Assembly: GCA_026014745.1 (NCBI GenBank) | Contig: JAOZHS010000001.1 | Coordinates: forward strand, 248,001-312,000 | DNA from: Candidatus Bathyarchaeota archaeon | GTDB lineage: Archaea > Thermoproteota > Bathyarchaeia > Bathyarchaeales > Bathycorpusculaceae | DNA: 64,000 nucleotides | Direction: 5' to 3' | In this document: positions 47,410-64,000 of the stretch, one piece after another | How positions within the stretch are numbered: the first letter of the stretch is position 1 | Layout: the number at the start of each line of letters is the position of its first letter | Notes under the pieces: model-generated | Databases searched by the model: none | The model's input: only the letters and a program-made list of their open reading frames with translations | Told to the model about the DNA's origin: nothing | Translations under genes and position numbers: made by a program

Positions 47410-47555
47410 GCTGTGGCGGGCCCGCTGGGATGCGTTTAATAGTTTAAGCGAATCCTTGCTTAGGCGTGAAAAAATTGTGGTAAAATTGGAACTTTAGAGC
47501 AGGACAAAATTTAGGAAGAGATTCAACAATAAGGATAGGAAGAATACAATAATTA

Positions 47556-48092
47556 TTATTGGTTGAGCTCAATCAGACCTTGCAACTTCTGAATTACCTG
47601 TTCTATTTGATTTGACTCCTTCAATCCTGTAATAATGGTTTTTCCTGAAGCAAAGATGAGAATGCTTGATTTGTTTGGCGTTTCTAATCTCAGGATTGCT
47701 CCTGGAAATTGTTCTGGTTCATAAATAGTTTTCTCACCTTCACAAAGCCGTTCCAAATTTAAAGTTGTTTGAAAATCAGCAAGAACAACGATATTCTGCG
47801 TTGTTTTAATTAGCTCAACGTTTTCTATTAGGTTTTTACGGGCCAAGAAAGTTTTAGCCATTTCTAACTCCTTGAAAGCCTGGGGCTCGGATTTTGTTCC
47901 CACTGAAATCAATTTCCCTGTGCGAAACATGGAAACCTTGCCCGCCATCTTTTTTGTCTTAAAATAAGCAACTTGACCACGATAGGTATTGGAGTTATAA
48001 ATGATTTCTTTGAATTTTCCAAGCTCATTGAAGTCAAGCGCTTTGCCTACCGAAGCTGTAGCAACCACATTAACTATTGTTACCTTGACCAT
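47556..48092 (-). CDS. tbp: TATA-binding protein, divergent copy
   Basis: 178 residues from ATG 48092; the frame extends to 48158 but TBP starts with the VxIVNVVATxxV block. Two saddle repeats are seen: IVNVVATASVGKALDFNEL with YRGQVAYFKTKKMAGKVSMF, and the second with YEPEQFPGAILRLETPNKSSILIFASGKTIITG. The second repeat is standard; the first has lost the EQFPGxxxR block, so DNA contacts there are altered. It may be an accessory TBP. Lies at the left edge of the restriction island. Confidence 0.88.
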   Translation of the reverse strand: MVKVTIVNVVATASVGKALDFNELGKFKEIIYNSNTYRGQVAYFKTKKMAGKVSMFRTGKLISVGTKSEPQAFKELEMAKTFLARKNLIENVELIKTTQNIVVLADFQTTLNLERLCEGEKTIYEPEQFPGAILRLETPNKSSILIFASGKTIITGLKESNQIEQVIQKLQGLIELNQ

Positions 48093-48217
48093 TGTATTCA
48101 AACAAATGTACAGTTGTGAGTAATTAAGAGTTGTCGCATCATAAGAAATCAAGGACAAAAATTTCGATTTCGTTTAATTGCCAAAAGAATACTTGCTCTA
48201 TCAAGTTCTTTGATGGT

Positions 48218-49048
48218 TTACTGAGCTAGTTCTCTAGCCCATTGGTAAGAGCTGCCTCGAAGACAAGATCTAGCAGTGGCAGAGAATTCGGCTTGGGGCT
48301 GTACCAGTTCTAGTATTTCTTGAATTATTATTTCGAATTCCATTTTGCCTGTGGGTGATCCGTTTTTGTATTGGCAAAAAGCCCTATTGCCTCGCTCTAT
48401 CAGTCGGGTACAAGCACTCCAAAGCTTTCTCCTTTCTTCAACTATCTTAACATCGTTCAGGTTTAAAATCTCAATAGTAACCCGCGCCCTCCGATGTAGT
48501 ATGCCTTCGGCTTCTGAATACCTAGGGGATGCTGTGCCGTCGTCCATGAACCATAGCACAAGTCGGTCTGCTGGATTTGTTGGGTCAAGCAATAAAGGTA
48601 TTTCGTCGTTAAGATTTGACTCGGGTGAGGAAGCTCTGTTTGCTTCAAATAGTAGTGGAAATTTATCTGATTTTCCTCGAACGATTCCATCCGAACCTGT
48701 GTGCAGGCTATTACAATAACTACATGCAAGACGGAAATTAGCTATGTCAAAAGCAAGCCACCAGTATCCATTCGATACTTCATCACCGTCTTCATTCTTA
48801 ACTCTATTTTTGGGTCTATGATGATCTACATGAAAATCCGAACGAGTGTTTTTTGTCTCGCAATACCAACATTTGAAATATGAAAGCTCTTCTAGCTTTG
48901 ACTTTAATCTTCCCCAAATGCGTGAGTTCCCGTTTATGAAAGCTGCTCTCTGATCCTCTGGTAGGGTCCTTAATAGATTGGTCAGCAGTAGTGCTTCTTC
49001 TTTCCAACTATTTGGGATATCTAACCTTGCGTTATCTATGTGAATCAA
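48218..49048 (-). CDS. HNH endonuclease, PtuB-like (Septu-type partner)
   Basis: 276 residues from TTG 49048, overlapping the upstream ATPase stop by 4 bp. HNH zinc finger: C60-WY-C63, H73-V-D75-H76 catalytic part, then a YWWLAFDIANFRLAC segment and C109-SY-C112-N113. The YWWLA...CxxCN spacing matches HNH nucleases of the PtuB/retron-associated group. With the SMC-like ATPase upstream, it makes a Septu-like pair. In known Septu systems the nuclease cuts phage DNA or host targets after ATPase triggering. Last gene of the restriction operon. Confidence 0.78.
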   Translation of the reverse strand: MIHIDNARLDIPNSWKEEALLLTNLLRTLPEDQRAAFINGNSRIWGRLKSKLEELSYFKCWYCETKNTRSDFHVDHHRPKNRVKNEDGDEVSNGYWWLAFDIANFRLACSYCNSLHTGSDGIVRGKSDKFPLLFEANRASSPESNLNDEIPLLLDPTNPADRLVLWFMDDGTASPRYSEAEGILHRRARVTIEILNLNDVKIVEERRKLWSACTRLIERGNRAFCQYKNGSPTGKMEFEIIIQEILELVQPQAEFSATARSCLRGSSYQWARELAQ

Positions 49049-50586
49049 CTTTTGCCCTTCTTCAATTTTTCAACTATTTCTTTTGCAAGTTTTGCTTGTT
49101 CTTCTTTCTCTTCCCTATTCATTGCAGGTTTTTCGAATTGTTCATATTCTGCAATCGCCTTAATGAATTGACTATATAGTGGGTCTCTAAAGGTATCCAA
49201 AAAGCCCATACTTCTAAGCTCTTCATCAAGCTTCTCCAATTCTTGGCTTTCCTCTAAAGTTAATTCTTTTTTGACTGCGAGCTCTTTCTTCCTTTCCAAT
49301 TTACGCTGTGTTTCTAAATCCAAAGTTGTTGGCAGACCGAAAAGTTCACTGGTTAACAATCCTGCAACACCCATGCCTATTGGATCCTTTTCTGGTGGCA
49401 AGATAACTACTCGTTTTTCTGGTTCTTGTAACCTAAAAATTTGAACTTGTTCTTTTTTCAATCCTCCAACAAGAAGAGGGTCATGTGTCACTACAAGAAC
49501 GTGGCTTGTCTCGTTCTTTCCAACTATTCTTTGAAGCAAATCCACGTATTCAAGCTTCCAATTAGGGTTAAGGTGAGTGTCTGGTTCATCAAGCAAGAAA
49601 AGTGATTCATCTTCTTTTGTAAATCTAAGAAGCCCAAGGACGGTCAGCAGTTGTTGTTCTCCTTCGCTTAACTCCGCGAATTCCAAACTGCCAGGTACAC
49701 CTTCTTTTTTAACCCTAATTTTCAGTTCATGTATGAGGTCAGATATGTAAGTGCTCTCTAACGTTTTGAAGAACTCCACGTTATTATCGTATTTAGATGC
49801 AAGCTTATGGAGTGAGTTCAAATCTTCAATGCGCAGATAGAGTCTTTCTTCAGTCTTTGCTCTGCCCATTGGCAGAGTAACTCTTTCAGTTCTTCTTATG
49901 GGCGCTGCGGTTTCCAAAGAGTATAAGTTTTCTAAAAATCCTCGAACAACACCACGTGCACCCCAAAAAAGATCACCTTTAGCTTTTTTCTGAAACCATC
50001 TAGGCTGCTTTAAGACAAATGTGGCATTCTCAAAACCAACAATGCCGAAATATTCTCTTAGAAAATTGAGTGATTCTGCCTCTTCAAAAGAAAAGAAGGC
50101 TAACAAAACATATTGGCTATGAACCATTCTAGCAAAAAATAACGGTCTTAGAGGAGTTTTTTGTCCTTCCAACAATTGTCTGTAGAATTTTTCCTGATGT
50201 TTGTCAAAATAGTGTTCAAGTCGTCTACTTTTTCCGGAATAATATCCGAAAACGTTGTTAGGTAAATACCTTCGGTCGGGTGATTTACTAAAAACCGAAA
50301 AAGAAATCGGGCTCCCATCTACCAAAATTTGAATCATCTTGTTCTTTTGGGGGTCTGCGTCGATCTCGATATGCCTACCTCTACACAAGTAACTTAACTT
50401 ATATTTGAACGGAGGGTCTTCGTTGAGGTCCAAGTGCCGAAATATTGACACTATTGCTTCCAAAAGATTTGACTTTGCGCTTGCGTTTCGTCCTATTAAA
50501 ACTGTAGTGAGACTTTTCTCGTCGAAATTAATTTCCGCGTTTAATAAATTTTTGAAATTCCCAATAAAAAGTTTGTCTAGTCTCAT
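49045..50586 (-). CDS. SMC/RecF-like AAA ATPase, PtuA-like
   Basis: 513 residues. Walker A GRNASAKSN at residues 32-40 (a G-to-A change against GxxGxGKS), ABC signature ELSEGEQQLL near 305, Walker B SLFLLDEPDTHL and H-loop VLVVTHDPLL. The fold is that of RecF/OLD/PtuA ATPases. C-terminal part is charged and coiled-coil-like, ending in EKEEQAKLAKEIVEKLKK. Start overlaps hsdS stop (ATGA) and its own stop overlaps the HNH gene, so the pair is translated with the type I system. The Walker A change should be checked for activity. Confidence 0.8.
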   Translation of the reverse strand: MRLDKLFIGNFKNLLNAEINFDEKSLTTVLIGRNASAKSNLLEAIVSIFRHLDLNEDPPFKYKLSYLCRGRHIEIDADPQKNKMIQILVDGSPISFSVFSKSPDRRYLPNNVFGYYSGKSRRLEHYFDKHQEKFYRQLLEGQKTPLRPLFFARMVHSQYVLLAFFSFEEAESLNFLREYFGIVGFENATFVLKQPRWFQKKAKGDLFWGARGVVRGFLENLYSLETAAPIRRTERVTLPMGRAKTEERLYLRIEDLNSLHKLASKYDNNVEFFKTLESTYISDLIHELKIRVKKEGVPGSLEFAELSEGEQQLLTVLGLLRFTKEDESLFLLDEPDTHLNPNWKLEYVDLLQRIVGKNETSHVLVVTHDPLLVGGLKKEQVQIFRLQEPEKRVVILPPEKDPIGMGVAGLLTSELFGLPTTLDLETQRKLERKKELAVKKELTLEESQELEKLDEELRSMGFLDTFRDPLYSQFIKAIAEYEQFEKPAMNREEKEEQAKLAKEIVEKLKKGKS

Positions 50587-52238
50587 TTATCTGCCTTCAA
50601 ATATGTTAGGTTTCCGTTTCTTGATTTTTTGATCCGACCTGCATCTGTTTCGGCCTTGAGCTTGTCCCAAAAATCTTCCATGCTCAATCCTGAAGCTTCA
50701 TATGTTCGTTCTATTGTGGCTGGGCCTATTTCTTTTAGAATCGCCTCCAATGTTTTGGTTTTTTCGCTTTCTTTGAGGCGCTTAGATTGAGGTCTTTCTT
50801 TGGATTGTTGTCTTGTGTAAATTCTTGTTTTTGCGGCCTCAGCTTCAATTCGTTTTAGAAGAATTGAAGCGGGCTCATCGTCCCGGTTCTGAGGTATAAG
50901 CTTACCTACAAAAGCTTTGGCTAGAATCGTTTCATCAATACAATCATTTTTGCTCTTTCCTTTCTTAACCAATGTTTCAATTTCGTTTGCAAAAGCAAAA
51001 AGTTCGCAAATTCTGGAGATTGTACTTTTTTGCTCAGAAATCGGAGCAAGCGGGAAAATCATACTCCTTACGTCATGCAAATACATATTTGGCTGATTAG
51101 CGCCAACCCCTAACCTTCTTGTTTCAATATATCTAAAATAAAGCCACCAGTACAGGTATTCAGGAAGCATATTTGTTTTTGAACTTTGTATGCAAGCTAT
51201 AGCCTGATTAGTTGTTGCTGAAATACGAAGAATCGCTGCCTGCCCTCTAGTTTTGCCTTCACCATATAATGCAAGCAATACTGTTCCGGGTGGATAGAGC
51301 TTAGCGCTACTATTGTCGAGACCCTCCTTTGTTATGCATTCATTTGTTTCAGTTATATCCTTAAATGCCACTTCTCCCGAGGATACCCACGGTATGTTAC
51401 CGTTCCAGTATTCTGGCCTGTTTCTTCTGGGTGTGCCTCCCGATGAAACATCAAATATATCTCCGATTGTGGTCCATAACCATTTTTTTGGCAGTTTGGG
51501 CATCTCTGGGGTACCACTTTCCTTTGATTGTATATGTTTTTTTTCGTCTCGTTCTTTTCTAATTTGTTTTAGGATGGTCTGCGCTGAAGCTTCATCCGAT
51601 TCGCCTTTTGTGTACTCGCCCCTGAATGCCTTAGAAAGAACCGCTTGGCGAAATTTTTGAAGCAGAGACAAAACATTGTTCAAATATTCTCTACTAGTCT
51701 TGCTCTCAGCAAGCAACATCATTATGTGAGAAGAGATCCTCTTTTGTTCATTAAGCGGAGGAAGAGGAAGCGGAATTGAACCTATAGTTTTTGAGGATAT
51801 GTGCTTGACAGTGACTGAAGAAGTATTTTTATTAATTTCATTTAGATATCCGGGCAAGACCAACTCCAAGAATTTGTCGTCGTAGAATTGTGATTTGACA
51901 GATATTTTGCATACTCTTTGATTAAGAAGGGCATCTGGTCCCGTCCAACGAGCGCAATTGAAATCGCCGTCCATTCCAACAAGAAGGTCGCCTTTTTTTA
52001 TTACATATTTTTGATCATAAGGTCCTTGAAAGAAACATTCGGTTTTGTCGTTGTATATGTCACGTATTCGGAGCAAAGGAAAACCAGTTGTTTCCGAAAA
52101 ATTTGACGACTCAAAAGCAAATCCATTCAAAATCTCTGCAACACTGCTTAAAGGAACGCGTTCCCAAGAACTATGGATCTGAATAAGGGGATTTGAAGGG
52201 GACGCGAACAAATCCTGTAGCGTTATGCGCAAAGTCAT
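50583..52238 (-). CDS. hsdS: Type I restriction-modification specificity subunit
   Basis: 551 residues. Two target recognition domains: the first around residues 20-190 (VPLSSVAEILNGFAF to PLPPLNEQKRISSHI), the second around 255-430 (WTTIGDIFDVSSGGTPRRNRPEY to FPLAPISEQKSTISRI), each followed by a helical spacer. A C-terminal extension of 100 residues, Lys/Glu-rich and winged-helix-like at the end (IERTYEASGLSMEDFWDKL), goes beyond normal HsdS. Starts 12 bp after hsdM. Recognises the two half sites of the DNA target. Confidence 0.92.
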   Translation of the reverse strand: MTLRITLQDLFASPSNPLIQIHSSWERVPLSSVAEILNGFAFESSNFSETTGFPLLRIRDIYNDKTECFFQGPYDQKYVIKKGDLLVGMDGDFNCARWTGPDALLNQRVCKISVKSQFYDDKFLELVLPGYLNEINKNTSSVTVKHISSKTIGSIPLPLPPLNEQKRISSHIMMLLAESKTSREYLNNVLSLLQKFRQAVLSKAFRGEYTKGESDEASAQTILKQIRKERDEKKHIQSKESGTPEMPKLPKKWLWTTIGDIFDVSSGGTPRRNRPEYWNGNIPWVSSGEVAFKDITETNECITKEGLDNSSAKLYPPGTVLLALYGEGKTRGQAAILRISATTNQAIACIQSSKTNMLPEYLYWWLYFRYIETRRLGVGANQPNMYLHDVRSMIFPLAPISEQKSTISRICELFAFANEIETLVKKGKSKNDCIDETILAKAFVGKLIPQNRDDEPASILLKRIEAEAAKTRIYTRQQSKERPQSKRLKESEKTKTLEAILKEIGPATIERTYEASGLSMEDFWDKLKAETDAGRIKKSRNGNLTYLKADK

Positions 52239-52250
52239 TCCAATGTAGCC

Positions 52251-53645
52251 TCAGGTCTTTGTGTCTGACTCGTAAAGTTTTGTTGCGAGTTCGTTGAGAG
52301 AGAATAAAGCACTCTCTAATGCTGTAATTGCGTCGCTGACCAGAACTTCAGGATCCTGAATAGATTCGGAATCCTCCTTGGAATTAGCATTTATCCAGAA
52401 CAAGTCAAGATTGAAGTCTCTTTTTTCAATAATTTCTTTTCCAAATTGCTTAAACCGAGTAGTTTCAACGCGGGGGTTTCTGTTGTAACACATTTCAAAA
52501 TCTTCAAAATAGTTATCGCTCAATGGATGACTTTTGGTGATTTTTTCAATATTTGTCCTGAGATCGTAAACCCAAACAGTTTCTGTTTGAAAACCTTTTT
52601 TGAAAAAAAGTATGTTAGCTTTTACTCCATTTGAGTACGGTGTGAAAGTTCCAATCGGTAATCTCAATATCGTGTGTAAATTGCAGTCTGTCATCAATAG
52701 TTTTCTTATTTCTCTTCCAGCATGCTCTTCGAACAAAACATTATCAGGTAAAACAATTGCAGCTCTTCCTCCAAGTTTGAGAATTGTCATAAGATGTTGC
52801 ACAAAATTCAGTTGCTTGTTCGAGGTCTTTACGGTAAAATCTTCTCGAATAGGCGCTTCTCCTGCTCCTTTCGTACCAAAAGGCGGATTTGTCATTATAC
52901 AATCATAACGTTTGTGTGCATATGCGCCGTCGGCTAATGCATCATCGTAATATATGTCTGCCTCGATTTCGTGCAAATAGAGATTCATCAAAGCCAATCT
53001 TCGAGTATCTTGCACTATTTCGACACCGGAAAAAGTGTTTTTTTGAAGCCGTTCTCGATCGTCACGGCTCAAATCTGCCCCTTCATTTGTCTGTTTCATC
53101 ATCCATTCATAAGCTCCAATTAGAAACCCAGCCGTGCCGCAAGCAGGGTCGTGAATAATAAAATCAGGCTTTTCTCGAATGTCGGGCTTTATGCATCGCA
53201 CAACACAGCGAATGGCTTCTCTAGGTGTGAAGTATTGTCCAGCGCCTTTTTGTTCTGCTGCGTATTTCTGTAATAGTCCTTCATAGACTTTGGCTTTCAG
53301 ATCAATATCAAGATCGGACCATTGAGTCTCATCAATCAGGCTTATTAGTTTCTTGAGATTTACTGGTTCTCTGAACTTGTTGAGAGCCCCTCCAAAAATA
53401 TCGCCCAATATACCTTGCTGCTTGCCTAAAGTGCGCAGGGCTTCTATGTAGTTGTCTAATAGTTCTGTTCCTGATTTTGCTTTTAAAGCTGACCAACTAC
53501 ACTCTTTTGGAACAGCCACACCTTTCTCATCAGCAATTTTGAGGAACAACAAATATGTCAGTTGTTCAATGTAATCTCCATAATTTATTCCGTCATGTCT
53601 GAGTGTATGACAGAAACCCCAAAGTCTAGCATCAACGTCGCTCAT
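52251..53645 (-). CDS. hsdM: Type I restriction-modification methyltransferase subunit
   Basis: 464 residues. N-terminal helical domain (LRHDGINYGDYIEQLTYLLFLK), SAM-binding DPACGTAGFLIGAYE and the adenine-methylase motif NPPFGTKG near residue 255. Methylates N6 of adenine in the target with HsdS. The start overlaps hsdR stop (ATGA). Confidence 0.95.
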   Translation of the reverse strand: MSDVDARLWGFCHTLRHDGINYGDYIEQLTYLLFLKIADEKGVAVPKECSWSALKAKSGTELLDNYIEALRTLGKQQGILGDIFGGALNKFREPVNLKKLISLIDETQWSDLDIDLKAKVYEGLLQKYAAEQKGAGQYFTPREAIRCVVRCIKPDIREKPDFIIHDPACGTAGFLIGAYEWMMKQTNEGADLSRDDRERLQKNTFSGVEIVQDTRRLALMNLYLHEIEADIYYDDALADGAYAHKRYDCIMTNPPFGTKGAGEAPIREDFTVKTSNKQLNFVQHLMTILKLGGRAAIVLPDNVLFEEHAGREIRKLLMTDCNLHTILRLPIGTFTPYSNGVKANILFFKKGFQTETVWVYDLRTNIEKITKSHPLSDNYFEDFEMCYNRNPRVETTRFKQFGKEIIEKRDFNLDLFWINANSKEDSESIQDPEVLVSDAITALESALFSLNELATKLYESDTKT

Positions 53646-56332
53646 GAAGTCATCCTCACATTAATTTGCGCAAGTATTTCTTTTAGTTTTCCGTTAAACG
53701 CTCTATTGGCTCTATTCCAACCGCCATGTCTACTGAAAGGAATGATTCGAAAATCGTCTTCATCCACTAGAAGATTCTGAACTAAATGATCTCTTATCAA
53801 GTTCAACCATTCCTCTTGTTCCTTTGTGAATGATTTGCCTTCGCGGAAACGCAAGAAAGCTTTGTCAACACGTTCAGCTGCATCCAACAAAGGCTCGTTT
53901 AAGGCTGCATGTCGAACCATACTAATGATATCAGCTAACTCTCGATGATATGCACGATGAAGATTGGGCTCAGTAAATCTCTCAGGGGTTGATGCTAACT
54001 TGGATTTAAGTTCACGCAATTCAAAAGTATTAAATTCTTTTGGTTTTGTCAAGAGGATATTAATCGCGTTTACGTGATCAGGGTTTTCCTTTACGAACCT
54101 CTCAAATGCTATTAAGTAGTCTTCGGGCTTCAAATCACGTCCATCGACTGTCCTGAATAATGTTTCACTAGAAACTTGATCCTCTGAATCAGAAGCTATG
54201 ACGAAGGTCTGGGGGGCTTTTGGGTAATTCTCACAGAATTTGGTGAAAAGTGGATTTCTCAAAAGCTTAATGGTCTCATCCCAATTTTCATCGAGGTTGC
54301 TAGCCAATGAAGATGCAAATGAACTAAGGGTGTTATTAACCAAGAAATCTGCTTGTGTTAGAGTACTTAGCAATAAAGCAAATTGTTCACGTCCTTCTGA
54401 CGAAATACTCTTGTCCATTCGTTGCAAACGCTTGGTCAAAACACTTGTATTGTAAGTACGATCATTGTTAGCATAAATGGATTCAATTATCTCTCTAAAT
54501 GACCTTGATGGCCTATCTGGTGGCTCAGCCGTAAATCCTGTCGAGTTTTTAAAATAATCAAGCAATGTTCCATCAAAACAATCAAACACAGTAAAATGTG
54601 TCTTGTTTATCTCGTCGCACTTACGTGTTCCCCGCCCAAGCATTTGCTCAAACAAAATACGGGATTTTACTGGTCTTAGAAAAATCAAATTCTCAATCCT
54701 TGGTACATCAATTCCTGTAGTTAACAAATCAACAGTGACAACAATTGCAGGTTCAGGGCGATTGCGGAACTTTCGAATCCATTGCAATGGACGATCTACT
54801 GTCGGACTGCCTGTAATCTTTTGGACAAAAACATCCCCTTTCCCAAACTCATCACGTAACATATTGACTAGCTCATCAGCATGACTAGTCTGAGGTAAAT
54901 CATTCACTGCAAAAAACAAAGACTTCGGAAAATGCCCGAACTCCTCCTGTTGCTTCAGAGAATACTTAGCAAATTCTTTAATAATTTTTCTATTCCTGTC
55001 AGGCGCAGTGACTTTGTCCTCCAAGTCCGCGGTTTCGTATTTGCGTTCATCCTCTAAAAACTCATACCGTGTTTCACCGGTTGCCGTATCCTTCAAACCT
55101 ACTTCTTCACCCGGCTTCAAAAACAAACCTTTCATAGTAATATCTGAATGAACTTTGACGATGTCATAATCAACCAAGAAACCCTCTTTAACCGCTCTCT
55201 CGTAATCATAACGATAGACTATATCTAAGAAATAGGCTTTGGTATGCGCAGCCGGCGTAGCAGTTAACCCAATTTTAACTGCATCAAAGTGATCAATAAC
55301 CTCGCGCCATCTACTTTCTTCAACTGAAGTATAACCTCTGTGGCATTCATCAGCAATTACACAGTCGAATGCATGAATAGGAATATTCTCAATCTTTTCT
55401 GCATCTGTCTCTTCATCAATATCTCTTCCAGGTATACCGAACATACCTTCTTTGCCAAAGAGATTGATTCGCATCCTCTGAATCGTGCAAACATAAATAA
55501 AAGCAAGATCAGTGTTTGGTTCAGTCAAATACTTCGTAGGAAGCAGTTTAGGATCAAACTTTACTTCTTCGTCTAAATCTTCAAGCCTAAACCTCTGGCT
55601 ATATACTTCGTAGGTCTTATCAAACTTTAAGCCTTTTTCAGGCTCGAAGGTTGAAAACTCTTTTACGGCTTGTGCAGCCAGCGCTTTTCGATCAACAAGA
55701 AATAGAATTCGCTTGGCATAACCTGATTTCATGAGTCTATAGACTAAAGCTGAAGCAACCCGTGTCTTGCCCGTGCCTGTAGCCATCGCAACAAGCATCC
55801 TGCGCTTATTAGATAACAATGCACGTTCAATGCTCTCAATTGCTTCTTTTTGATACTTGCGCAGTGAAGGATTATCAACCAACGTGTTTCTTAGCCACTC
55901 CTCAGGTTTTGATTTATCCCCCTCAAGGAGTTCTGCTAATGCTGACGGCGTATGAAAAGCTGCAACCTGGCGCGACCTACTACGAATATCTCTTAAATCT
56001 TGGAACCAAAAAAGTTTCCCATTGGTAGAATAAATAAAAGGAACATGAAAACCACCAAAATCAAAGTCTCTTCCTCTATATCCACGAGAGTATCTTTGCG
56101 CTTGAATCAAGACATTCTGAGGACCTAACTCAAGTTTCTTTGATTCTACAACTGCAACAGCAATTCCCTGGTCAAAGAGGACATAATCTGCTGGCCCGTT
56201 TTCTGTCTTATACTCACGAACGGCGGCTTTTTCATAAATGCATCCGTCTTTGTAATTGACAATAGGTGTCCAGCCTGCAAGACTCAAAGCTTTTTCAATA
56301 TACGTTCTTCGGGTTTCAGCTTCACTGGGCAC
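53642..56332 (-). CDS. hsdR: Type I restriction-modification motor/nuclease subunit
   Basis: 896 residues from GTG 56332 with AGGTG 7 bp upstream; the frame opens at 56368. N-terminal PD-(D/E)XK nuclease D49, E63-x-K65 with QAQRYSRG, then a SF2 motor with Walker A ATGTGKTR (near 190), DECH box, SFII motif VI GRGTRKCDE, and an EcoEI-like C-terminal domain. Cuts unmethylated DNA away from the site after translocation. First gene of the five-gene operon hsdRMS-ATPase-HNH. Confidence 0.95.
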   Translation of the reverse strand: MPSEAETRRTYIEKALSLAGWTPIVNYKDGCIYEKAAVREYKTENGPADYVLFDQGIAVAVVESKKLELGPQNVLIQAQRYSRGYRGRDFDFGGFHVPFIYSTNGKLFWFQDLRDIRSRSRQVAAFHTPSALAELLEGDKSKPEEWLRNTLVDNPSLRKYQKEAIESIERALLSNKRRMLVAMATGTGKTRVASALVYRLMKSGYAKRILFLVDRKALAAQAVKEFSTFEPEKGLKFDKTYEVYSQRFRLEDLDEEVKFDPKLLPTKYLTEPNTDLAFIYVCTIQRMRINLFGKEGMFGIPGRDIDEETDAEKIENIPIHAFDCVIADECHRGYTSVEESRWREVIDHFDAVKIGLTATPAAHTKAYFLDIVYRYDYERAVKEGFLVDYDIVKVHSDITMKGLFLKPGEEVGLKDTATGETRYEFLEDERKYETADLEDKVTAPDRNRKIIKEFAKYSLKQQEEFGHFPKSLFFAVNDLPQTSHADELVNMLRDEFGKGDVFVQKITGSPTVDRPLQWIRKFRNRPEPAIVVTVDLLTTGIDVPRIENLIFLRPVKSRILFEQMLGRGTRKCDEINKTHFTVFDCFDGTLLDYFKNSTGFTAEPPDRPSRSFREIIESIYANNDRTYNTSVLTKRLQRMDKSISSEGREQFALLLSTLTQADFLVNNTLSSFASSLASNLDENWDETIKLLRNPLFTKFCENYPKAPQTFVIASDSEDQVSSETLFRTVDGRDLKPEDYLIAFERFVKENPDHVNAINILLTKPKEFNTFELRELKSKLASTPERFTEPNLHRAYHRELADIISMVRHAALNEPLLDAAERVDKAFLRFREGKSFTKEQEEWLNLIRDHLVQNLLVDEDDFRIIPFSRHGGWNRANRAFNGKLKEILAQINVRMTS

Positions 56333-56561
56333 TAAATCACACCTGCCTATAGCTAACCATAGGAGCAAGGTAAGCGGATAAGCTTTTTGCGAACCATACC
56401 CTTTAGAGGGTTCTTCTTGCTGAAATCGAGAAGAAATTTGGAGTATTATTCAGCACTTTTATTGCCTCAGAAAGCAGGAAACCCCCTTCCTTTTAGAGTG
56501 AATCAAAAGTCTAGCAAGACTTAAAACTTCTGAGCACCAAACCAAGATTGGTGTTTCCGAG

Positions 56562-57488
56562 ATGACAATAAGTAGACTTAAGCGTGTACCGCTTCGGGTG
56601 GTTTGGAAAAATGAGGAAAAAGACTTCACTCCTTGGCTCCAGAAAAATCTTGATGTTCTAAGCGAAGCTATGGGAATGGAATTGTCTCCAGGTGAAAGAG
56701 AAGCATCAGTTGGGAAAGCTTTTGAGGCTGACCTTTTAGCTGAAGGCACTGATGGCGACTTAGTGGTTATCGAAAACCAGTTTGGAAAGAGCGATCATGA
56801 TCACTTAGGAAAAATCCTTACGTATTTGGTAAACTTAAATGCCAAAACAGCCATCTGGATTTGCGAGAATCCACAGCCAGAGCACATGGAAGCGATTGAC
56901 TGGTTAAACAAAAGTTCTGCTGCAGACATTTCCTTTTATTTGGTAAGATTGGAAGCTTTTCAAGTTGGCGACTCTCAAGACGTTGGTCCTCACTTTTCAA
57001 TAGTCTCAGAACCAAGTAGCCAAATCAAAGAAGCGGGCGAAACTGTGGAAGAACTTGCAGAAAGACATGTGAAGCGGCGCCAATTCTGGACCCAACTTCT
57101 TCCAGAAAGCAACAAAAAAACACAATTATTCTCAAATATCTCAGCGAGCAAAGATCATTGGATTTCGGCGGGCGCTGGAATTAGTGGAGTTGTTTATCAA
57201 TATCTAATCTTGAAAGATGGCGCCAGAGTTCAACTTGCAATTGAAGGATCTGATCAGAATAGGAACAAGGCAATTTTTGACGGCCTTTCTAGTGTGAAAG
57301 ACCTAATAGAGAAAGACTTTGGCGAACAACTAGCTTGGAACCGACTAGATAACAAGAAAGCGTCTTATATCACAAAAAGTGTCATCGACAAAGGGCTTAG
57401 AGATAAAGAGGAATGGCCTAAAATAATTGAGAAACTTGTCGAAGAAATGGTGAGGTTGGAAAAAGCTATATCGCCTCACCTAAAGTAA
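56562..57488 (+). CDS. DUF4268-type protein with PD-(D/E)XK-like domain
   Basis: 308 residues. Residues 50-100 hold a nuclease-like core: D57, then E71-N-Q73 (LVVIENQFG) with the helix HLGKILTYLV. The C-terminal 150 residues (HVKRRQFWTQLLP, ISGVVYQYLILKDGARVQLAIEG) match the DUF4268 pattern. Found often near restriction genes. K-to-Q change in ExK is seen in some active PD-(D/E)XK enzymes. Divergent from hsdR; 193-bp gap with nothing else seen. Confidence 0.72.
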   Translation: MTISRLKRVPLRVVWKNEEKDFTPWLQKNLDVLSEAMGMELSPGEREASVGKAFEADLLAEGTDGDLVVIENQFGKSDHDHLGKILTYLVNLNAKTAIWICENPQPEHMEAIDWLNKSSAADISFYLVRLEAFQVGDSQDVGPHFSIVSEPSSQIKEAGETVEELAERHVKRRQFWTQLLPESNKKTQLFSNISASKDHWISAGAGISGVVYQYLILKDGARVQLAIEGSDQNRNKAIFDGLSSVKDLIEKDFGEQLAWNRLDNKKASYITKSVIDKGLRDKEEWPKIIEKLVEEMVRLEKAISPHLK

Positions 57489-57634
57489 TCAATTGGAAAA
57501 CCAATTGCTGTATTGAAAGGGCGAATGTTTTGTCATTTCAGAATTGCGTGAAATGTATTCTGATTTTCTAAAGAAGCTACTTCATGATAAAGCTTATCAC
57601 TGCAAAGGCTGAATAATAAACTAAGGCGACACCT

Positions 57635-58567
57635 ATGCCAAAAGCTGCAAAAATATCCTTTATTAATTTCAAGGGAGGAGTCGCAAAGACCACAACCGCT
57701 GTAAACTTCGCTGCAACACTCGCTAAAAGAGGTTACAGCACTCTTCTCGTGGACCTTGATCCACAATCTAACAGTACTCAATGGTTGCTTGGGGAAAAAA
57801 GAGGCACGCAGAGAATACAAAGCGAGCCAACAAAAACAGTTAATCAACTATTTCTTGATAGAGCTCAAAAAACAACCAAATTCAGATTCGCAGATGCTGT
57901 TGTTAGCGCCGTTGCCCAAAACAATTCGGGTCTTTCTCTGACGCCAAATCTCGACTTGCTCCCAAACACATACCGCGCAATTAAACTAGAACAAGAGTTG
58001 AGTGCGAAAGGGATTGCAACTGACGAGATTTTAAAGTTTCAGCTTGAAAATGTCCAAAACAACTACAAATTCATTGTTTTTGACTGTCCACCAAATATAT
58101 ACAGAACTACTCAGAACGCATTAATTTTCTCAAATTACTTCATAATCCCGGTATATCCAGACTACTTTGCGGAATCAGGTCTTCAGATTCTATGTCAACA
58201 GATTGATGATGATTGGTGCGATATTGGTCATCACTCAGATGATGACCTCGAACTGTTGGGCGTTATTATAACAAGAATAAAAGAGGGTGCCACGCTCGAC
58301 CGTTCAAAACGGGTCACGCTAGAAAGAAGATTAAAGGGGTTAAAAAATGATCCTGCGATAAAAAATCACAATATATTTGCCCAAGCTGAAGTTTTCGAAC
58401 CATATTTCAACGATACAGTAGAAGTGGCAAGATCAATAGACGAATTTACTCCAACAATTTACCATAAGAAGTCTTATCCACCCATTAAAACATACATCGA
58501 ACGGATGGACAGATTCGTCGATGATGTTATCCGAAAAGTTCACGTGAGATTTCCGTGGGCTAAATAA
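57635..58567 (+). CDS. ParA-type P-loop ATPase
   Basis: 310 residues. Deviant Walker A KGGVAKTT at residues 13-20, switch LVDLDPQSN, Walker B FIVFDCPPN. Standard ParA/MinD-like fold with an insertion of unknown role around 65-100 and a C-terminal extension (YIERMDRFVDDVIRKVHVRF). No ParB or centromere-like repeats are near. It begins a three-gene cassette with 58584 and the nuclease at 58972, with gaps of 16 and 4 bp. It may move or recruit the nuclease rather than segregate DNA. Confidence 0.88.
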   Translation: MPKAAKISFINFKGGVAKTTTAVNFAATLAKRGYSTLLVDLDPQSNSTQWLLGEKRGTQRIQSEPTKTVNQLFLDRAQKTTKFRFADAVVSAVAQNNSGLSLTPNLDLLPNTYRAIKLEQELSAKGIATDEILKFQLENVQNNYKFIVFDCPPNIYRTTQNALIFSNYFIIPVYPDYFAESGLQILCQQIDDDWCDIGHHSDDDLELLGVIITRIKEGATLDRSKRVTLERRLKGLKNDPAIKNHNIFAQAEVFEPYFNDTVEVARSIDEFTPTIYHKKSYPPIKTYIERMDRFVDDVIRKVHVRFPWAK

Positions 58568-58583
58568 TATTGGAGGCATAGCC

Positions 58584-58967
58584 TTGAGCATGGATAAAAA
58601 AGAAAGGACATTATTCAGAAAGTTATCAGAAATTACGTCCCTAATCGCAAGCAATGTTAATGAGAAAAACTTTGGCACAGTCTGTTCATTAATTGAGAAG
58701 CTGGAAACCGATCTATCCGAAACTTTCAAAGATTCAAAATGTGAGAGTATACCGATCTGGAGAAGCTTCTCGAATATGACTGAGGATGAAATTCGAAGAG
58801 AATTTAGTGATATACAAAAATACCCAGATATAAAATCCATAAAACTTGCAGTCAAGGGCTTTTTGGAAATGCGTAAAGTATCAAAAGTGAAAACGAGAGA
58901 AACTCTTATCGACCATATAATTGAAACTTACAGCAAAAGGCAACACCTCGGAGAACTTGGCAGGTAA
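58584..58967 (+). CDS. Small helical protein of the ParA-nuclease cassette
   Basis: 127 residues from TTG 58584, which has GGAGG 7 bp upstream (ATG 58590 is too far from it for best spacing). Highly charged and helical (LFRKLSEITSLIASNV, DIQKYPDIKSIKLAVKGFLEMRK), no known domain. Placed between ParA and nuclease genes, it may be an adaptor or regulator. No family recognised. Confidence 0.6.
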   Translation: MSMDKKERTLFRKLSEITSLIASNVNEKNFGTVCSLIEKLETDLSETFKDSKCESIPIWRSFSNMTEDEIRREFSDIQKYPDIKSIKLAVKGFLEMRKVSKVKTRETLIDHIIETYSKRQHLGELGR

Positions 58968-58971
58968 AATC

Positions 58972-59460
58972 GTGAAACCGAGGAGAGAGTACGATGTTCA
59001 CGATATAATTTCGGCCTATCCTTACTTCCTGGGGTTGAAATATGCTTCGATGCAGGTAACTCATGAAAAGATTTATCCCAATAGAAAAAGATCTGACTTT
59101 GTATTCTCTGACGACCAAGAGGTAATCATGGTTGAAGTTAAGAAAGGGTATATTGATTCTGCAATGCTGGATCAGGCATTTCAATATATGAATGAGGAAA
59201 AGAAACAGCGTAAGAATAAAAAACTTGAAGGAATTTTAATAGGTCTTCCGGCCAGAAATCCAGAATTGGATGCTTTGATCGCCTCAAGTGAATTTAATTT
59301 CTCAAAAAAATATTTAGGAATAGATGTTCCAACTAATGTTGAACAGATTAAGTTTTGTGCAGAAACAAATTGTCGCAAAGCTAATTGGTACTATAACAGC
59401 ATATGCCAGTACTGTGGCTCTAGTAATTTTATTCGCGACCCGTTCGCCTTTTCTCGATAG
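58972..59460 (+). CDS. PD-(D/E)XK nuclease with C-terminal zinc finger
   Basis: 162 residues from GTG 58972 with AGGT 7 bp upstream, 4 bp after the upstream stop; a TTG at 58921 lies in the previous gene. Nuclease core: D42 (RSDFVFS), E55-V-K57 (IMVEVKKG) and Q68-x3-Y72, the RecB-like set. C-terminal Cys pairs CAETNC and CQYC form a zinc finger. It would cut DNA; with ParA ATPase and the small protein it makes a cassette I do not know as a named system. Confidence 0.78.
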   Translation: MKPRREYDVHDIISAYPYFLGLKYASMQVTHEKIYPNRKRSDFVFSDDQEVIMVEVKKGYIDSAMLDQAFQYMNEEKKQRKNKKLEGILIGLPARNPELDALIASSEFNFSKKYLGIDVPTNVEQIKFCAETNCRKANWYYNSICQYCGSSNFIRDPFAFSR

Positions 59461-59726
59461 GAGTAGACACTGTGAGATCTCATTTTGAGGTTCGACTCAT
59501 CAAGCTAAAATTTTGATAAATTTGGTAATTATTAAAATGTAAAAAAGTCGCTCTCACACACAATTCCTATACTTTCTTTTAACGTTGAGTGGTTAATGAA
59601 CCTTCTAAAAGAGGGCAATGGCAACAAGTTCTGCGCTGGTCTCTAAAAGTACATGTTTTCACGGCATAACAGTCAAGATAGCGGTTTAGGTAGTTTTTGG
59701 TGGGTTAGTACATAGTTAGCATTGGG
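59461..59726. other. Intergenic region, nothing supported
   Basis: Between convergent genes. A-rich and T-rich runs but no coding frame, tRNA or clear hairpin that I can support. A TGAGGTTCGACTCA piece resembles a tRNA T arm but no other arm is present. Confidence 0.4.
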
Positions 59727-61073
59727 TTAAGACATCTTCTGTTTTCTCGAGGATAGGTCAGACTTTAGCATAATATTAGCTAATGAGTGAACGTCTAGCT
59801 GGGTTTCGTCGAGCAAATCAAGTTTTTGCTCCATAAGAAAAGCCCGCATTTCATATTTTGCGATTTTCTTCATGTCTTTGGTTTTTGCCCATGAAGCGCA
59901 CGCGCTAGCGATGGATTGTACATTATCTTTTTCATTCGCCAGCCGTTGTTCTCTTGACTTTGTTTTTTCCTCTTGGATTAGAATCCGTGCCTGAGTAAAT
60001 GCCTTGTCGAGCTTCTCTTCGGTTTCTCTAGAGAATCTGCCCTGACCTTCTTTTGTTCTTCGAAATTGTTGGAAGACTTCCCAGAAGTTAGAAGCTGCAT
60101 ACTGTAGATCCATTCTTGGGAATTCTTTGTGAATAAAATTCAGAGCTTGTTTTGCTATGGCTTCAGGTTCTTCCTGCAAAACGATTTCTTGGGTTTCAGA
60201 ACCTTGAGAAAATGCTTTTTGTTCGTGCTTTTTCTGGTCGATTTCGCGTTTCATCAACTCTTCTAGAACCAAAGATTTGGCAATCCGAATTTTTCGCTGC
60301 TCCTCATTAGGTAGCGTAAATTCTTCTAAGCCATTTGTAAGATAAAAAAGCTCGAAAAGTTTGTAGGGATTTGAACTAAGAAAACTCCTTTGGGTATTGT
60401 CCCTAACATCCAAACTCTCTAAAATCTTTTGGGCTATGCTTTCAGGTGTTCCATCTGAAATAAACGAAGGGACTTCAAACTTTTCAGCGTCCACTATCTC
60501 GTGCTGAATGTTTTTATTAATTATTTCAGGCTGTTCGATGATCTGGTCTGATTTATTTTCTTTTTCCTGACGGTTTTCCTCGGCGTTGGGTTGTTTTCGT
60601 CCATGGCTGAGGGGATTTGTTTCTGAGGAATTGCTCTTTTTTTCTCTTTCAATTTTTTCCAGTTCTCTATCGACCAATGCCTGTAGAAGTTCCAATTTGA
60701 GTGTACCAGCGGTGGACAACTGATTCAATTCGATTTTCCCATTATCGAATAGGTACAATTCACAAATTAATGCGGGGATTGGAACGCCTTTGTCAAGGTA
60801 TTCTTTTTTTGCGTAATCTATTATGTCTTTCATGATTTCCTCCGTTGTTCGATTCCTTATCAACTCTGGATCTTCAGGCTCGTTTGGAATCTGGCATTCT
60901 TTTTCAATAAAGCTCAAATCGGGCTTTGGTGTGTTTTCCGCATTTAACGGCAAATCACCTGTTTCTGGTACGTCTTCTCCAAGAAATTTGAAAATCAGGC
61001 ACATATCTTCCTTAAACATAACGCATTTTTGTTTTATGCATGATTCTTTTAGGAAAGGACAAACGCCGGACAT
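59727..61073 (-). CDS. Unrecognised protein with N-terminal four-cysteine motif
   Basis: 448 residues from ATG 61073 with GGAGA 7 bp upstream (TTG 61100 with AGGAG is an equal rival). The first 30 residues carry C5, C12, C17 and C25 (CPFLKESC, then KC, MC), a possible small metal site. The rest is helical, charged and poorly structured in the middle (Glu/Lys/Gln/Asn-rich, 140-190), with three similar stretches PESIAQKIL, PEAIAKQAL and TEEIMKDII. No membrane segment. No family recognised. First of several unknown genes on the right side of the island. Confidence 0.6.
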   Translation of the reverse strand: MSGVCPFLKESCIKQKCVMFKEDMCLIFKFLGEDVPETGDLPLNAENTPKPDLSFIEKECQIPNEPEDPELIRNRTTEEIMKDIIDYAKKEYLDKGVPIPALICELYLFDNGKIELNQLSTAGTLKLELLQALVDRELEKIEREKKSNSSETNPLSHGRKQPNAEENRQEKENKSDQIIEQPEIINKNIQHEIVDAEKFEVPSFISDGTPESIAQKILESLDVRDNTQRSFLSSNPYKLFELFYLTNGLEEFTLPNEEQRKIRIAKSLVLEELMKREIDQKKHEQKAFSQGSETQEIVLQEEPEAIAKQALNFIHKEFPRMDLQYAASNFWEVFQQFRRTKEGQGRFSRETEEKLDKAFTQARILIQEEKTKSREQRLANEKDNVQSIASACASWAKTKDMKKIAKYEMRAFLMEQKLDLLDETQLDVHSLANIMLKSDLSSRKQKMS

Positions 61074-61198
61074 TATTAGTTCTCCATTGGTTTGGTTCAA
61101 GTTAATCTCTCCTATGGTATAACAATTACTTATAATTACTTACAAATACAGATAATCCCTAAACATGACTTCGTTAATACGAGTTTAGCAGGATTTAG

Positions 61199-61357
61199 AT
61201 GGCGAAACTCAAATTGACGGTAACGCTGGCGCCTGATTTGATTCGGTGGATTGACGTGGAAGTCAAACAGGGCCACTTTGCTGATAGAAGTCATGCGATT
61301 CAATTCTCCTTGATGAAAACTAAAGAATTAATTGATAAGGGGCAGATCAAGTTTTAA
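61199..61357 (+). CDS. Small ribbon-helix-helix protein
   Basis: 52 residues (ATG 61199): MAKLKLTVTLAPDLIRWID with DRSHAIQFSLMKTKELI, a CopG/Arc-type fold. Divergent from the four-cysteine gene across a TATA-rich 98-bp region, so it may regulate that gene. Its 3' end overlaps the convergent coiled-coil gene by 11 bp. Confidence 0.75.
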   Translation: MAKLKLTVTLAPDLIRWIDVEVKQGHFADRSHAIQFSLMKTKELIDKGQIKF

Positions 61358-62408
61358 GTCTCCCAATTAACTGGAAAAATAATTCCAGGTTGTTTATTGT
61401 TGAATTGCTTATTTTGAGAGGATAGGTTTTGTAGTAGAATTCCGCCTCTAGGCAGAAAACTACTCCATTTAGGCCTCCTGTAAAGTTTGTAGGCGTACAA
61501 TTTACAAAAGAAACAACATAATCAAAGGCCCCTGACTGCGCTTTTTCGCATATCAGTGGAATCATGGATTCATCTTCTTTATCTTCAACGAACAGATCGG
61601 CAGTTATCCACTGTTTGCGTTCTATAAACCGCTGGCAAGCATTTATCTGGTCCTGGATACTTATCGCTGGGTTTGCTTGCGGGTTTGGGTAAACATAGAT
61701 TGCCGCTCGAGTTTTGTCGGCATCGACAGCCAATACGCCTTCGGTACTAACCGGAGGTCTTGTTAGATTAATCAGTTCATTCCAGAGACTTTCGTTTGAA
61801 TTAATCAGTTCAGTGGCACAAAGAGCGTTCTCTTCGGCATTCTTCACTATGTTTGTAGCGGCAGCTAGAAATCGAGGAGTAAGCCTTTGGTTGCTCAGGT
61901 CAGCACTCAAAAAAGAGATAGACAGATCAAGTTTTTTAAACAGTGACAGACTCTGTTTTAAAAGTCTCGCGGAATCAATGCATTTATTAGCAATTTGTTT
62001 TTCGCAATCAAGAATAGAGAAAGCACTTAGAAATGACTGATTGTCAATTTGGTTTGAGAAGGGTAGTTGTACATCAAGTAAGTTAAATTGTCGGATTTTT
62101 TTGATATGTTCTTTCCAAGCATATGTGTTTAGATTGTTAGAAAGATCATGAAGGCTTTGAAGTATAGATGGTAATCTTTCAAGTTGCTTATTAACCGAAG
62201 TAGTTTCTTTCTCTTTGCTTTCTGAAGCCTTAGTCGCCTCTTGTTGACTTTCTGTACTTGCTTCGATTTTTCCTTCAATTATTGTCACCACAGTTGTCCT
62301 GAGGTCTGACGAGAGTTTTGTAACGGCTTCAGATTGTTTCAATGCCCATTTTCGAAAGTTCTGAGTTTGCTTATGATATTCAACCAGTTCAGCTAACTTA
62401 TTTTCCAC
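61347..62408 (-). CDS. Coiled coil fused to a degenerate serine-recombinase-like domain
   Basis: 353 residues from GTG 62408 with GGAGG 8 bp upstream. Residues 1-220 are helical with a Ser/Lys/Glu/Thr-rich coiled region. From about residue 230, RAAIYVYPNPQANPA, SIQDQINACQRFIERKQW and AQSGAFDYVVSF follow the resolvase N-terminal pattern AIYxRxSxxxQ...Q...C...; the catalytic Ser and the nearby Arg are Asn and Tyr here. So it may keep the fold without recombination. No DNA-binding resolvase C-domain follows. The match is by eye; a profile search is needed. Confidence 0.5.
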   Translation of the reverse strand: MENKLAELVEYHKQTQNFRKWALKQSEAVTKLSSDLRTTVVTIIEGKIEASTESQQEATKASESKEKETTSVNKQLERLPSILQSLHDLSNNLNTYAWKEHIKKIRQFNLLDVQLPFSNQIDNQSFLSAFSILDCEKQIANKCIDSARLLKQSLSLFKKLDLSISFLSADLSNQRLTPRFLAAATNIVKNAEENALCATELINSNESLWNELINLTRPPVSTEGVLAVDADKTRAAIYVYPNPQANPAISIQDQINACQRFIERKQWITADLFVEDKEDESMIPLICEKAQSGAFDYVVSFVNCTPTNFTGGLNGVVFCLEAEFYYKTYPLKISNSTINNLELFFQLIGRLKT

Positions 62409-62411
62409 AGA

Positions 62412-63146
62412 CTATTCCTCCAAGAAATCCTTGCTTCGGCTACCTATGCTCGTTTTTGAAACCGGCTGCATAAACCCACTTTGCAATGCTTGCAAATTCA
62501 TCTCATTCGATTTCGCAGATTCTGAGGCCAAACTCGTCAAACTGACCGAGCAACGAATTATGCTTGATATAACTTGCAATGTTCTTGGTAAGAAGACGAC
62601 CCATCTAAGATTATCGACTGCCATCAACTGATAATCGATACTTTCCAAGATGTTCAAGCATTTTCTCAGCGCCTTATATGCACTTATTAAGAATCCAAGC
62701 GTAACATCCTCTTGAATGAGAATCTGTAGTTTTTGCACCGAGAGGAGGTTTGAAGATAAATCATAAATTGGCGAAGGAAATGAATCTTTTATTTGTTCTT
62801 TTACCTCTGTTGACCATGTGTGTAATTCTGAGAAACATCCTATGATGCAGCCAAGTTGCTCCTTGAAGGAACTCAAGACTCTCAGTTCTTCCGCCACATC
62901 AAAAGGTGATCCGTCAACTTTTAGTAGGACTAAGTGTTCCTTAGGGTTTGTTTCCGAGAATTCATCTTTCTTAACAAAGCCGATACTTGTTTGAGCCAAT
63001 CTCGCAGCCAATGAGTCAATTGTGCATGAATAGCTTTCAAGCTCCTGACATATTAAGAGCGCTAACTCAGTTGCCTTTCGGAGCTGTTCATTACGTCTAA
63101 TGGACCATGTAAATCCCGTATTCTGTCTTTTGTCCCTTACCATCAT
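62412..63146 (-). CDS. Unrecognised helical protein
   Basis: 244 residues (ATG 63146 or the next ATG 63143). Mostly helical with alternating hydrophobic positions (ALLICQELESYSCTIDSLAARLAQ, LRKCLNILESIDYQLMAV); no signal peptide or clear motif. Ends 3 bp before the coiled-coil/recombinase-like gene and starts 6 bp after the 99-residue gene, so the three form one operon. Confidence 0.55.
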   Translation of the reverse strand: MMVRDKRQNTGFTWSIRRNEQLRKATELALLICQELESYSCTIDSLAARLAQTSIGFVKKDEFSETNPKEHLVLLKVDGSPFDVAEELRVLSSFKEQLGCIIGCFSELHTWSTEVKEQIKDSFPSPIYDLSSNLLSVQKLQILIQEDVTLGFLISAYKALRKCLNILESIDYQLMAVDNLRWVVFLPRTLQVISSIIRCSVSLTSLASESAKSNEMNLQALQSGFMQPVSKTSIGSRSKDFLEE

Positions 63147-63152
63147 GTTAAG

Positions 63153-63452
63153 TCAACTCCTGAGGGTATGCGAAAATTTCTGAACCGGCTTTTTTTTATC
63201 TTCACCATGGTAACATAATGTGTGAAGAAATACCAATTCTCCCCAAAACAAGAAAATGTTATTATTGAACTTCATTGCAAGCCAAGAAGTCTTCATAGAA
63301 TCTAGCAAGTGTATTAGTTTTGTGAATTCTTTCGGGCTCAGTATTACAATTGGCTTGTATTTGTTTAAATCCGGGGTAGCGTCAATTTTGATTATTCTTT
63401 CACTCTGCATTAGGCCTTCTATTGGGCAGTAAGTATTTCTATCATCCAACAT
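63153..63452 (-). CDS. Unrecognised small protein, first of a three-gene operon
   Basis: 99 residues from ATG 63452. Mixed strands and helices (KYKPIVILSPKEFTKLIHLLDSM, FNNNIFLFWGELVFLHTL). Promoter region with ATACGCYTAT operators directly before it; a CATATAG stretch about 30 bp upstream would give a near-leaderless start. No family recognised. Confidence 0.5.
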   Translation of the reverse strand: MLDDRNTYCPIEGLMQSERIIKIDATPDLNKYKPIVILSPKEFTKLIHLLDSMKTSWLAMKFNNNIFLFWGELVFLHTLCYHGEDKKKPVQKFSHTLRS

Positions 63453-63458
63453 TATGTT

Positions 63459-63526
63459 TATACGCCTATATGACTATACGCCTATATGTTTAATGCTTAT
63501 AAACTTTATGCACATACGCTTATGTG
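63459..63526. promoter_or_regulatory. Three ATACGCYTAT operator repeats between divergent genes
   Basis: TATACGCCTATATG occurs at 63459-63472 and again at 63475-63488, 16 bp apart. A related CACATACGCTTATGTG (63511-63526) has 6-bp inverted arms. GCTTATAAAC (63495-63504) between the second and third is a TATA box for the plus-strand RHH gene at 63537. The RHH protein is the likely binder, and repression of both sides is inferred. Confidence 0.72.
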
Positions 63527-63536
63527 GTTATATGCA

Positions 63537-63704
63537 ATGCCCAAGAAGGACAATACAATCAGAACAACGTTGGTAATCGACGAGAAACTATGGGGCCGCT
63601 TTCTAAAATATACTTTTGAAAAGTACGGAAGTGCAAAAAAAGCTTCTGCAGAGATTGAGTTAGCGATCGCTGAATATTTGGAACGACATGAAAAACGACC
63701 GTAG
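63537..63704 (+). CDS. Ribbon-helix-helix regulator
   Basis: 55 residues from ATG 63537; the frame opens at 63486 but those codons cover the operator and TATA box. Pattern TIRTTLVIDEKLWGRFLKYT then ASAEIELAIAEYLE fits an RHH fold. Probably binds the three operators just upstream and controls itself and the three-gene operon 61347-63452. Confidence 0.7.
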   Translation: MPKKDNTIRTTLVIDEKLWGRFLKYTFEKYGSAKKASAEIELAIAEYLERHEKRP

Positions 63705-63707
63705 GGC

Positions 63708-63740
63708 GATATCTAATTGATATCAATTCTTTTTCTTTCA
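63708..63740 (+). terminator. Terminator of the RHH gene
   Basis: GATATC-TAATT-GATATC hairpin followed by AATTCTTTTTCTTTC, 4 bp after the RHH stop. Confidence 0.55.
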
Positions 63741-63745
63741 CCCCA

Positions 63746-63777
63746 AACAAAAAAATTTGCTATCTATTTGATAGCAT
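63746..63777 (-). terminator. Terminator of the partial zinc-ribbon gene
   Basis: On the minus strand GCTATC-AAATA-GATAGC overlaps the stop codon and is followed by AAATTTTTTTG. It faces the terminator of the plus-strand gene. Confidence 0.6.
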
Positions 63778-64000
63778 CTAAGAGTTTAGGAATTTCATTA
63801 AATATCTTTTTGAGATCGTCAATGTCGATTAAATCGCTATTCAGGATAACACTAGAAATAAGGTCCTGACAGCCAGTACAGATACTTATTTTCCAGGCAC
63901 CGCTAATCTCTTTCAACTCTGTATATTTCCCAAAATATTTCTTCAGCTCTTTTTTCGACCTGTGACAGATCCAACAGCGCAGTTCCTCTTCTTTATCGCT
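63764..64000 (-). CDS. Zinc-finger protein, partial (N-terminus off window)
   Basis: Minus-strand frame open from base 64000 to TAG at 63764, 78 residues visible. Two CxxC pairs, CWIC and CTGC, 34 residues apart, with a hydrophobic helix-rich C-terminus (DLISSVILNSDLIDIDDLKKIFNEI). Looks like a small zinc-binding protein; family not recognised. The start is outside the window. Confidence 0.65.
   Translation of the reverse strand, partial: SDKEEELRCWICHRSKKELKKYFGKYTELKEISGAWKISICTGCQDLISSVILNSDLIDIDDLKKIFNEIPKLLDAIK

Follow-up and report, generated by a model that had tools for sequence, protein, structure and literature searches.

Why a ParA-type ATPase should be encoded just ahead of a small gene and a nuclease, in the midst of defense genes, is the question raised by three genes in a 64,000-nucleotide stretch of a Bathyarchaeota genome (2.7 Mb in 3 contigs). 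We refer to the whole of that stretch as the window. An earlier note, made from the letters of the window, had described three genes spaced 16 and 4 bp apart, and their coordinates, strand, and spacing were all reproduced from the open reading frames (Table 1). P0002 starts at a TTG codon or at an in-frame ATG at 58590. The preferred start of P0003 is the GTG at 58972; an alternative reading frame from a TTG at 58921 would encode 179 residues and would overlap the second gene. The cassette, we think, probably represents a little-studied system of anti-virus defense or element conflict. Our best explanation, to which we give slightly less than an even chance, is that a ParA and a small partner protein form a mobile switch with exchangeable effectors and that the window adds a NucS-like nuclease effector with an anti-virus function.

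Table 1. The cassette and its annotated neighbors, in window coordinates
Feature	Coordinates	Strand	Assignment or basis
Septu PtuB	48218-49048	-	1e-73
Septu PtuA	49045-50586	-	1e-194
hsdS-like	50583-52238	-	Named from sequence features and position
hsdM-like	52251-53645	-	Named from sequence features and position
HsdR, type I restriction	53642-56368	-	Domain/defense-model scan
PDC-S11/DUF4268 putative defense protein	56562-57488	+	PADLOC PDC-S11, 7e-112; Pfam DUF4268, 1.2e-38
P0001	57635-58567	+	ParA/MinD-type ATPase, 310 aa
P0002	58584-58967	+	Small helical ParA partner, 127 aa
P0003	58972-59460	+	PD-(D/E)XK nuclease, NucS-like catalytic domain, 162 aa

Where the cassette lies is suggestive of mobility. 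GC content is 0.36 to 0.41 between roughly 47.5 and 70 kb and mostly 0.42 to 0.49 outside, and a low-GC mobile island (window positions 47500 to 64000 plus locus L180, positions 64001 to 70000 in window numbering) likely carries the cassette together with defense genes. Of the neighborhood first described, a type I restriction operon with a Septu-like pair, the type I restriction gene and the Septu pair were confirmed by Pfam and PADLOC, and the PDC-S11 gene was added to it. The latter ends 146 bp upstream of the cassette on the same strand, and we count it as a neighbor and not as part of the cassette. We note that a phage-integrase-family gene lies at the far end of the island, at about 66028 to 67287 in window numbering, and that a second recombinase-like reading frame without a Pfam match (67302 to 68585) lies at the same end. 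We also note that minus-strand reading frames of 457, 353, and 244 amino acids adjoin the cassette at 59727 to 63146 and are candidates for further island cargo; none of the three had a convincing match in Pfam or PADLOC.

The first gene encodes a ParA. P0001 had been called ParA-like on account of KGGVAKTT, and that deviant Walker A motif is indeed present, accompanied by a Walker A' motif (DLDPQSNST) and by matches to Pfam AAA_31 (PF13614; 2.8e-38) and to the ParA-like PHROG 164 (1.5e-46). Its best solved relatives are the Soj/ParA segregation proteins. When compared with plasmids, P0001 was less than 60 percent identical to all proteins and had many weak ParA matches, and a search at 1e-20 gave matches in 2 of 201 related genomes (the window genome and G101). 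The closest alignment of P0001 is to a subfamily of ParAs that are associated with a small partner. This subfamily was first assembled from matches in Caballeronia, Rhizobium, Methylocystis, and G101; its alignment retrieved 18 loci from viral contigs at E < 1e-65, with all others at 1e-36 or weaker, and genomes added at least four further loci. Matches in Haliscomenobacter and Azospirillum were set aside, as their contexts look like ordinary partition, with a ParB in Azospirillum. As defined here, the module consists of a ParA core of about 270 to 320 amino acids with a T-x-x-x-LF-x-D ... LDLLP insertion and, directly downstream, a partner of mostly 120 to 170 amino acids that is homologous to the family profile. 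P0001 shows the insertion motif (alignments A1 and A6) and shares about 30 percent identity with subfamily members; it lies on a long branch (support 81/79) of a tree in which its placement inside or outside the subfamily is uncertain. In many ParAs of the subfamily (L008, L009, and L012 to L017), the N terminus is extended by an HTH-like sequence, LVGINEIAxMxxVSRQAVANW, similar to that of partition ParAs that autoregulate.

The second gene, earlier called merely helical, appears to encode the conserved companion of ParA. A small helical partner, and not a ParB, was encoded directly 3' of ParA at 23 of 25 subfamily loci, which lie on prophages, on plasmids, and on chromosomes of bacteria or archaea, in a set that includes plasmid, Bacillota, Streptomyces, and archaeal loci. 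At the other two (L017 and L094), a partner was not detected downstream by the reading frame filter. The partners are 124 to 233 amino acids long, and their genes begin a few bases behind ParA or overlap it. A profile of the 23 partners scored P0002 at 18.2 bits, whereas the best of 1,000 shuffles reached 7.9, and P0002 ranked first of 5,356 reading frames, the next being at 11.9 bits. Remote homology of P0002 to the partner family is well supported, as three accepted but divergent members drop to 5 to 9 bits when they are left out of the profile. Profile-profile comparison put the probability at no more than 27 percent, and the assignment leans instead on how P0002 scored relative to shuffled sequences and decoys. 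We conclude that there is good evidence, at the level of sequence, for P0002 as a remote homolog within the partner family. Moreover, P0002 is predicted to be predominantly helical, as first described, by homology to a family that is modeled with confidence as all helical (pLDDT 83.8; 23 rows, first sequence L016, P0002 included). That model had no significant match in a fold search of the PDB and BFVD; its weak matches were DEK and SAP domains (E > 1) and 2rno (E = 0.1), which we take to be a SAP domain. Tentatively, the C-terminal end of P0002 and its family may be SAP-like and bind DNA. No relatives of P0002 were found in plasmids, and neither a ParB nor an RHH centromere-binding protein was matched in Pfam or NCBIfam.

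The third gene encodes a nuclease that resembles part of NucS. The residues read earlier as a catalytic site, D42, E55, K57, and Q68-x3-Y72, are all present, and the similarity extends beyond the motif. Residues 6 to 111 of P0003 align to positions 136 to 238 of a NucS profile with the five residues in register. P0003 scored 22.8 bits with that profile (E = 1.3e-5), first of 5,356 reading frames with the next at 6.3 bits and the best of 2,000 shuffles at 9.6, but because the profile was built from two proteins that the P0003 search itself had returned, these controls bound chance and not selection. An independent NCBIfam model of NucS gave 16.6 bits (E = 0.003), and a search of 398 Thermoproteota genomes gave two weak matches, both to the nuclease domain of NucS-like proteins. 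The PADLOC model HEC-02B also matched (E = 1.6e-4); a source description of HEC-02 was not found in the literature. No relatives were found in plasmids, phages, or viral contigs, and the single-sequence structure model was unusable (pLDDT 38.7). The zinc finger of the earlier description is seen as C129-x4-C134 ... C145-x2-C148, a candidate zinc ribbon. P0003 should work like the nuclease domain of NucS, yet it is not NucS, as the N-terminal NucS domain is absent and the candidate zinc ribbon is present.

The cassette recurs in its parts and not as a whole. That the triplet might be a recurring unit had been raised earlier, and the full triplet was found nowhere else in the plasmids, phages, viral contigs, and genomes searched, where collection scans relied on exact peptide patterns, which are blind to diverged copies, and genome searches covered a portion of the phylum. 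Both pairings, ParA with partner and ParA with nuclease, do recur. ParA and the small partner recur together across phyla. In bacteria, the recurrent unit is the ParA with its partner, usually with no third gene or with another one.

Pairing of ParA with a PD-(D/E)XK nuclease was found in a separate lineage. At six of six Thermoproteota loci, a ParA gene is followed by an overlapping PD-(D/E)XK gene. The six ParAs are monophyletic (support 100/100) with P0001 outside, and their nuclease is Hjc-like, with P0014 matching Pfam Hjc at 6.9e-5. Within the G361 family, the nuclease was present in 5 of 17 genomes, exactly the five with the ParA. CRISPR-like arrays or DUF499 and SNF2 genes adjoin the pair at three of the six loci: 26 copies of a 25-nt repeat with 62-70 nt spacing lie about 0.5 kb from the nuclease of G107, on a 7-kb contig that could be contamination; 12 CRISPR-like repeats lie about 0.56 kb upstream of the ParA of G457; and DUF499 and SNF2 genes lie near the pair of G296. 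The lineage was not found in viral contigs. The Thermoproteota pair and the window both couple ParA to a PD-(D/E)XK protein, but in the window a small gene stands between, the ParA belongs to another clade, and the nuclease is NucS-like instead of Hjc-like. With a different ParA lineage and a different nuclease family, the two couplings would be convergent, and thus ParA-nuclease coupling seems, from these sequences, to have arisen at least twice. Separately, the ParA-partner pair of G101 is preceded at 300 bp by a gene (L179, 3446 to 3976) for a protein with a D-x14-E-V-R pattern, possibly a degenerate PD-(D/E)XK nuclease.

ParA-partner pairs elsewhere sit in mobile and defense contexts. Second-tier ParAs (L029 to L031, L033, and L034) were paired with a partner at all five loci examined. 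The order at L034 is integrase, ParA, partner, and Psu (2.3e-93), and a Klebsiella locus (L189) matches this int-psu region with its ParA annotated as split. The pair of P4 satellites thereby sits between int and psu, an interval described by Rousset et al. (2022, PMC9122126) as an antiviral hotspot and a reservoir for such systems. At L031, the order is integrase, ParA, partner, and AIPR, and the pairs of L012 and L013 lie amid phage structural genes that run on the other strand. In E. coli genomes, the pairs of L031 and L033 were absent, and L034 was represented by its flanking sequence only. The third gene of L029 encodes a DUF5677 protein, and that of Methylocystis L009 (7345 to 7935) encodes an RxxxxH motif (RCNLFH) without a HEPN match in Pfam. 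We note that the L009 gene lies near a ubiquitin-like operon (E2/ThiF/multiubiquitin) and Fic, and that at L028 (6452 to 9632), the pair is followed by a weak ParB_N-domain protein, a 340-amino-acid protein, and a DNA adenine methyltransferase-like gene. Neighbors matched by PADLOC were single instances of PLD-helicase, ShosA, Mokosh, and AbiLi, as well as PD-Lambda-5_B models, a list without a matched background from which we claim no enrichment.

Perhaps the cassette maintains DNA instead of destroying it. The ParA and a small non-ParB centromere-binding partner might stabilize an episomal or excised form of the island, and the nuclease might be an unrelated neighbor. We think this somewhat unlikely, but it keeps real weight because homologs of the ParA reside on plasmids (Methylocystis, Rhizobium, Caballeronia, and Pantoea), a setting in which partition would be a natural role, and because a system that about one in four P2-like phages carries has been read as putative plasmid partition (Rousset et al., PMC9122126). 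PHROG 164 also carries a ParA-like partition name, and the far end of the island has the integrase-type gene and the recombinase-like reading frame. The nuclease gene, however, begins only 4 bp after the second gene. Moreover, the cassette and its surroundings hold short two-copy repeats only, with no intergenic parS or centromere array and no iterated centromere-like repeats, and the earlier view that this is not a textbook partition locus stands, as ParB and iterons are both missing. ParB_N was found in 2 of 114 genes around ParA homologs, neither in an obvious parAB operon, a count made without a matched background. Finally, segregation is not an obvious function for pairs among phage structural genes or in the P4 cargo spot.

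Toxin-antitoxin action has a precedent, since dyads of ParA/Soj and the HEPN protein MAE_18760 were predicted in 2013 to act in this way (Anantharaman et al. 2013, PMC3710099) and thus already coupled a ParA to a nuclease. Here the nuclease would be the toxin, and ParA, with P0002, the antitoxin. The tight gene spacing and the RxxxxH-bearing third gene of Methylocystis would fit, but P0002 is encoded between the ATPase and the nuclease, the Methylocystis protein has no Pfam match that would make it a HEPN, and a Pfam scan of the window cassette gave no HEPN match either. We consider it quite unlikely. That ordinary ParA and nuclease genes became neighbors by chance in a defense island is improbable: the triplet is unique within the searched sets, but the gaps are very short, the pairing of the first two genes recurs across phyla, and ParA and nuclease are neighbors at all six loci of another lineage. 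Counting against a ParA-nuclease switch are the failure to find the triplet in the other sets searched, the separate ParA lineage and nuclease family of the Thermoproteota pairs, the long branch and uncertain placement of P0001, the plasmid homologs, and the many ParA-partner loci, the majority, that lack a linked third gene.

How might a switch with a nuclease effector work? We take the domain identities, the gene order, the recurrence of both pairings, and the mobile and defense contexts as established by comparison of sequences, and we infer a physical complex, DNA as its target, and an anti-virus function. A small dedicated helical partner would stand in for ParB beside the ParA-type ATPase. 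ATP-bound ParA would dimerize and coat DNA nonspecifically, and the partner, through its proposed SAP-like C-terminal segment, may mark or sense particular DNA and stimulate the ATPase. The ATPase cycle would then position or license the nuclease, which would cut invading or replicating mobile-element DNA. We speculate further that there may be an as yet unrecognized, cross-domain and mobile defense family of ParA and SAP-like partner, with exchangeable NucS-like, Hjc-like, DUF5677, or HEPN-like effectors, in which the ParA cycle finds foreign DNA or licenses its destruction and does not segregate it; so broad a generalization is doubtful.

On mobile elements, a ParA gene is usually given the annotation of a partition gene. 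If this ParA-partner family does act in defense or in inter-element conflict, many such annotations in prophages, plasmids, and P4 satellites are misreadings, and the ParA mechanism gains a use beyond DNA segregation. The int-psu location in P4 makes the ParA-partner family directly testable in laboratory enterobacteria. A published description of the small-partner family or of ParA coupled to a PD-(D/E)XK protein was not found in the literature, where the useful sources on ParA in defense were only the HEPN dyad paper and the P2/P4 hotspot paper (PMC3710099 and PMC9122126).

Several known systems resemble the cassette in part. The pair occupies exactly the P4 psu-int hotspot at L034 and in Klebsiella, but the nuclease is absent there, and mention of the pair as a validated system of that hotspot was not found (PMC9122126). 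ParABS systems (Soj, ParF, and pNOB8 ParA) share the ParA fold with its deviant Walker A motif; in the cassette, ParB and iterated centromere repeats are missing, the candidate partner is SAP-like, and a nuclease is attached. NucS/EndoMS, the archaeal mismatch endonuclease, shares with P0003 the PD-(D/E)XK signature of D, E-x-K, and QxxxY. P0003, however, is 162 amino acids long instead of about 250, begins within the nuclease domain without the N-terminal NucS domain, has gained a candidate zinc ribbon, and is encoded behind a ParA. The ParA/Soj-HEPN dyad is likewise a compact conflict operon that joins a ParA-family ATPase and a nuclease, but in the cassette, a PD-(D/E)XK protein that is expected to cut DNA replaces the HEPN RNase, and a conserved small partner gene is added.
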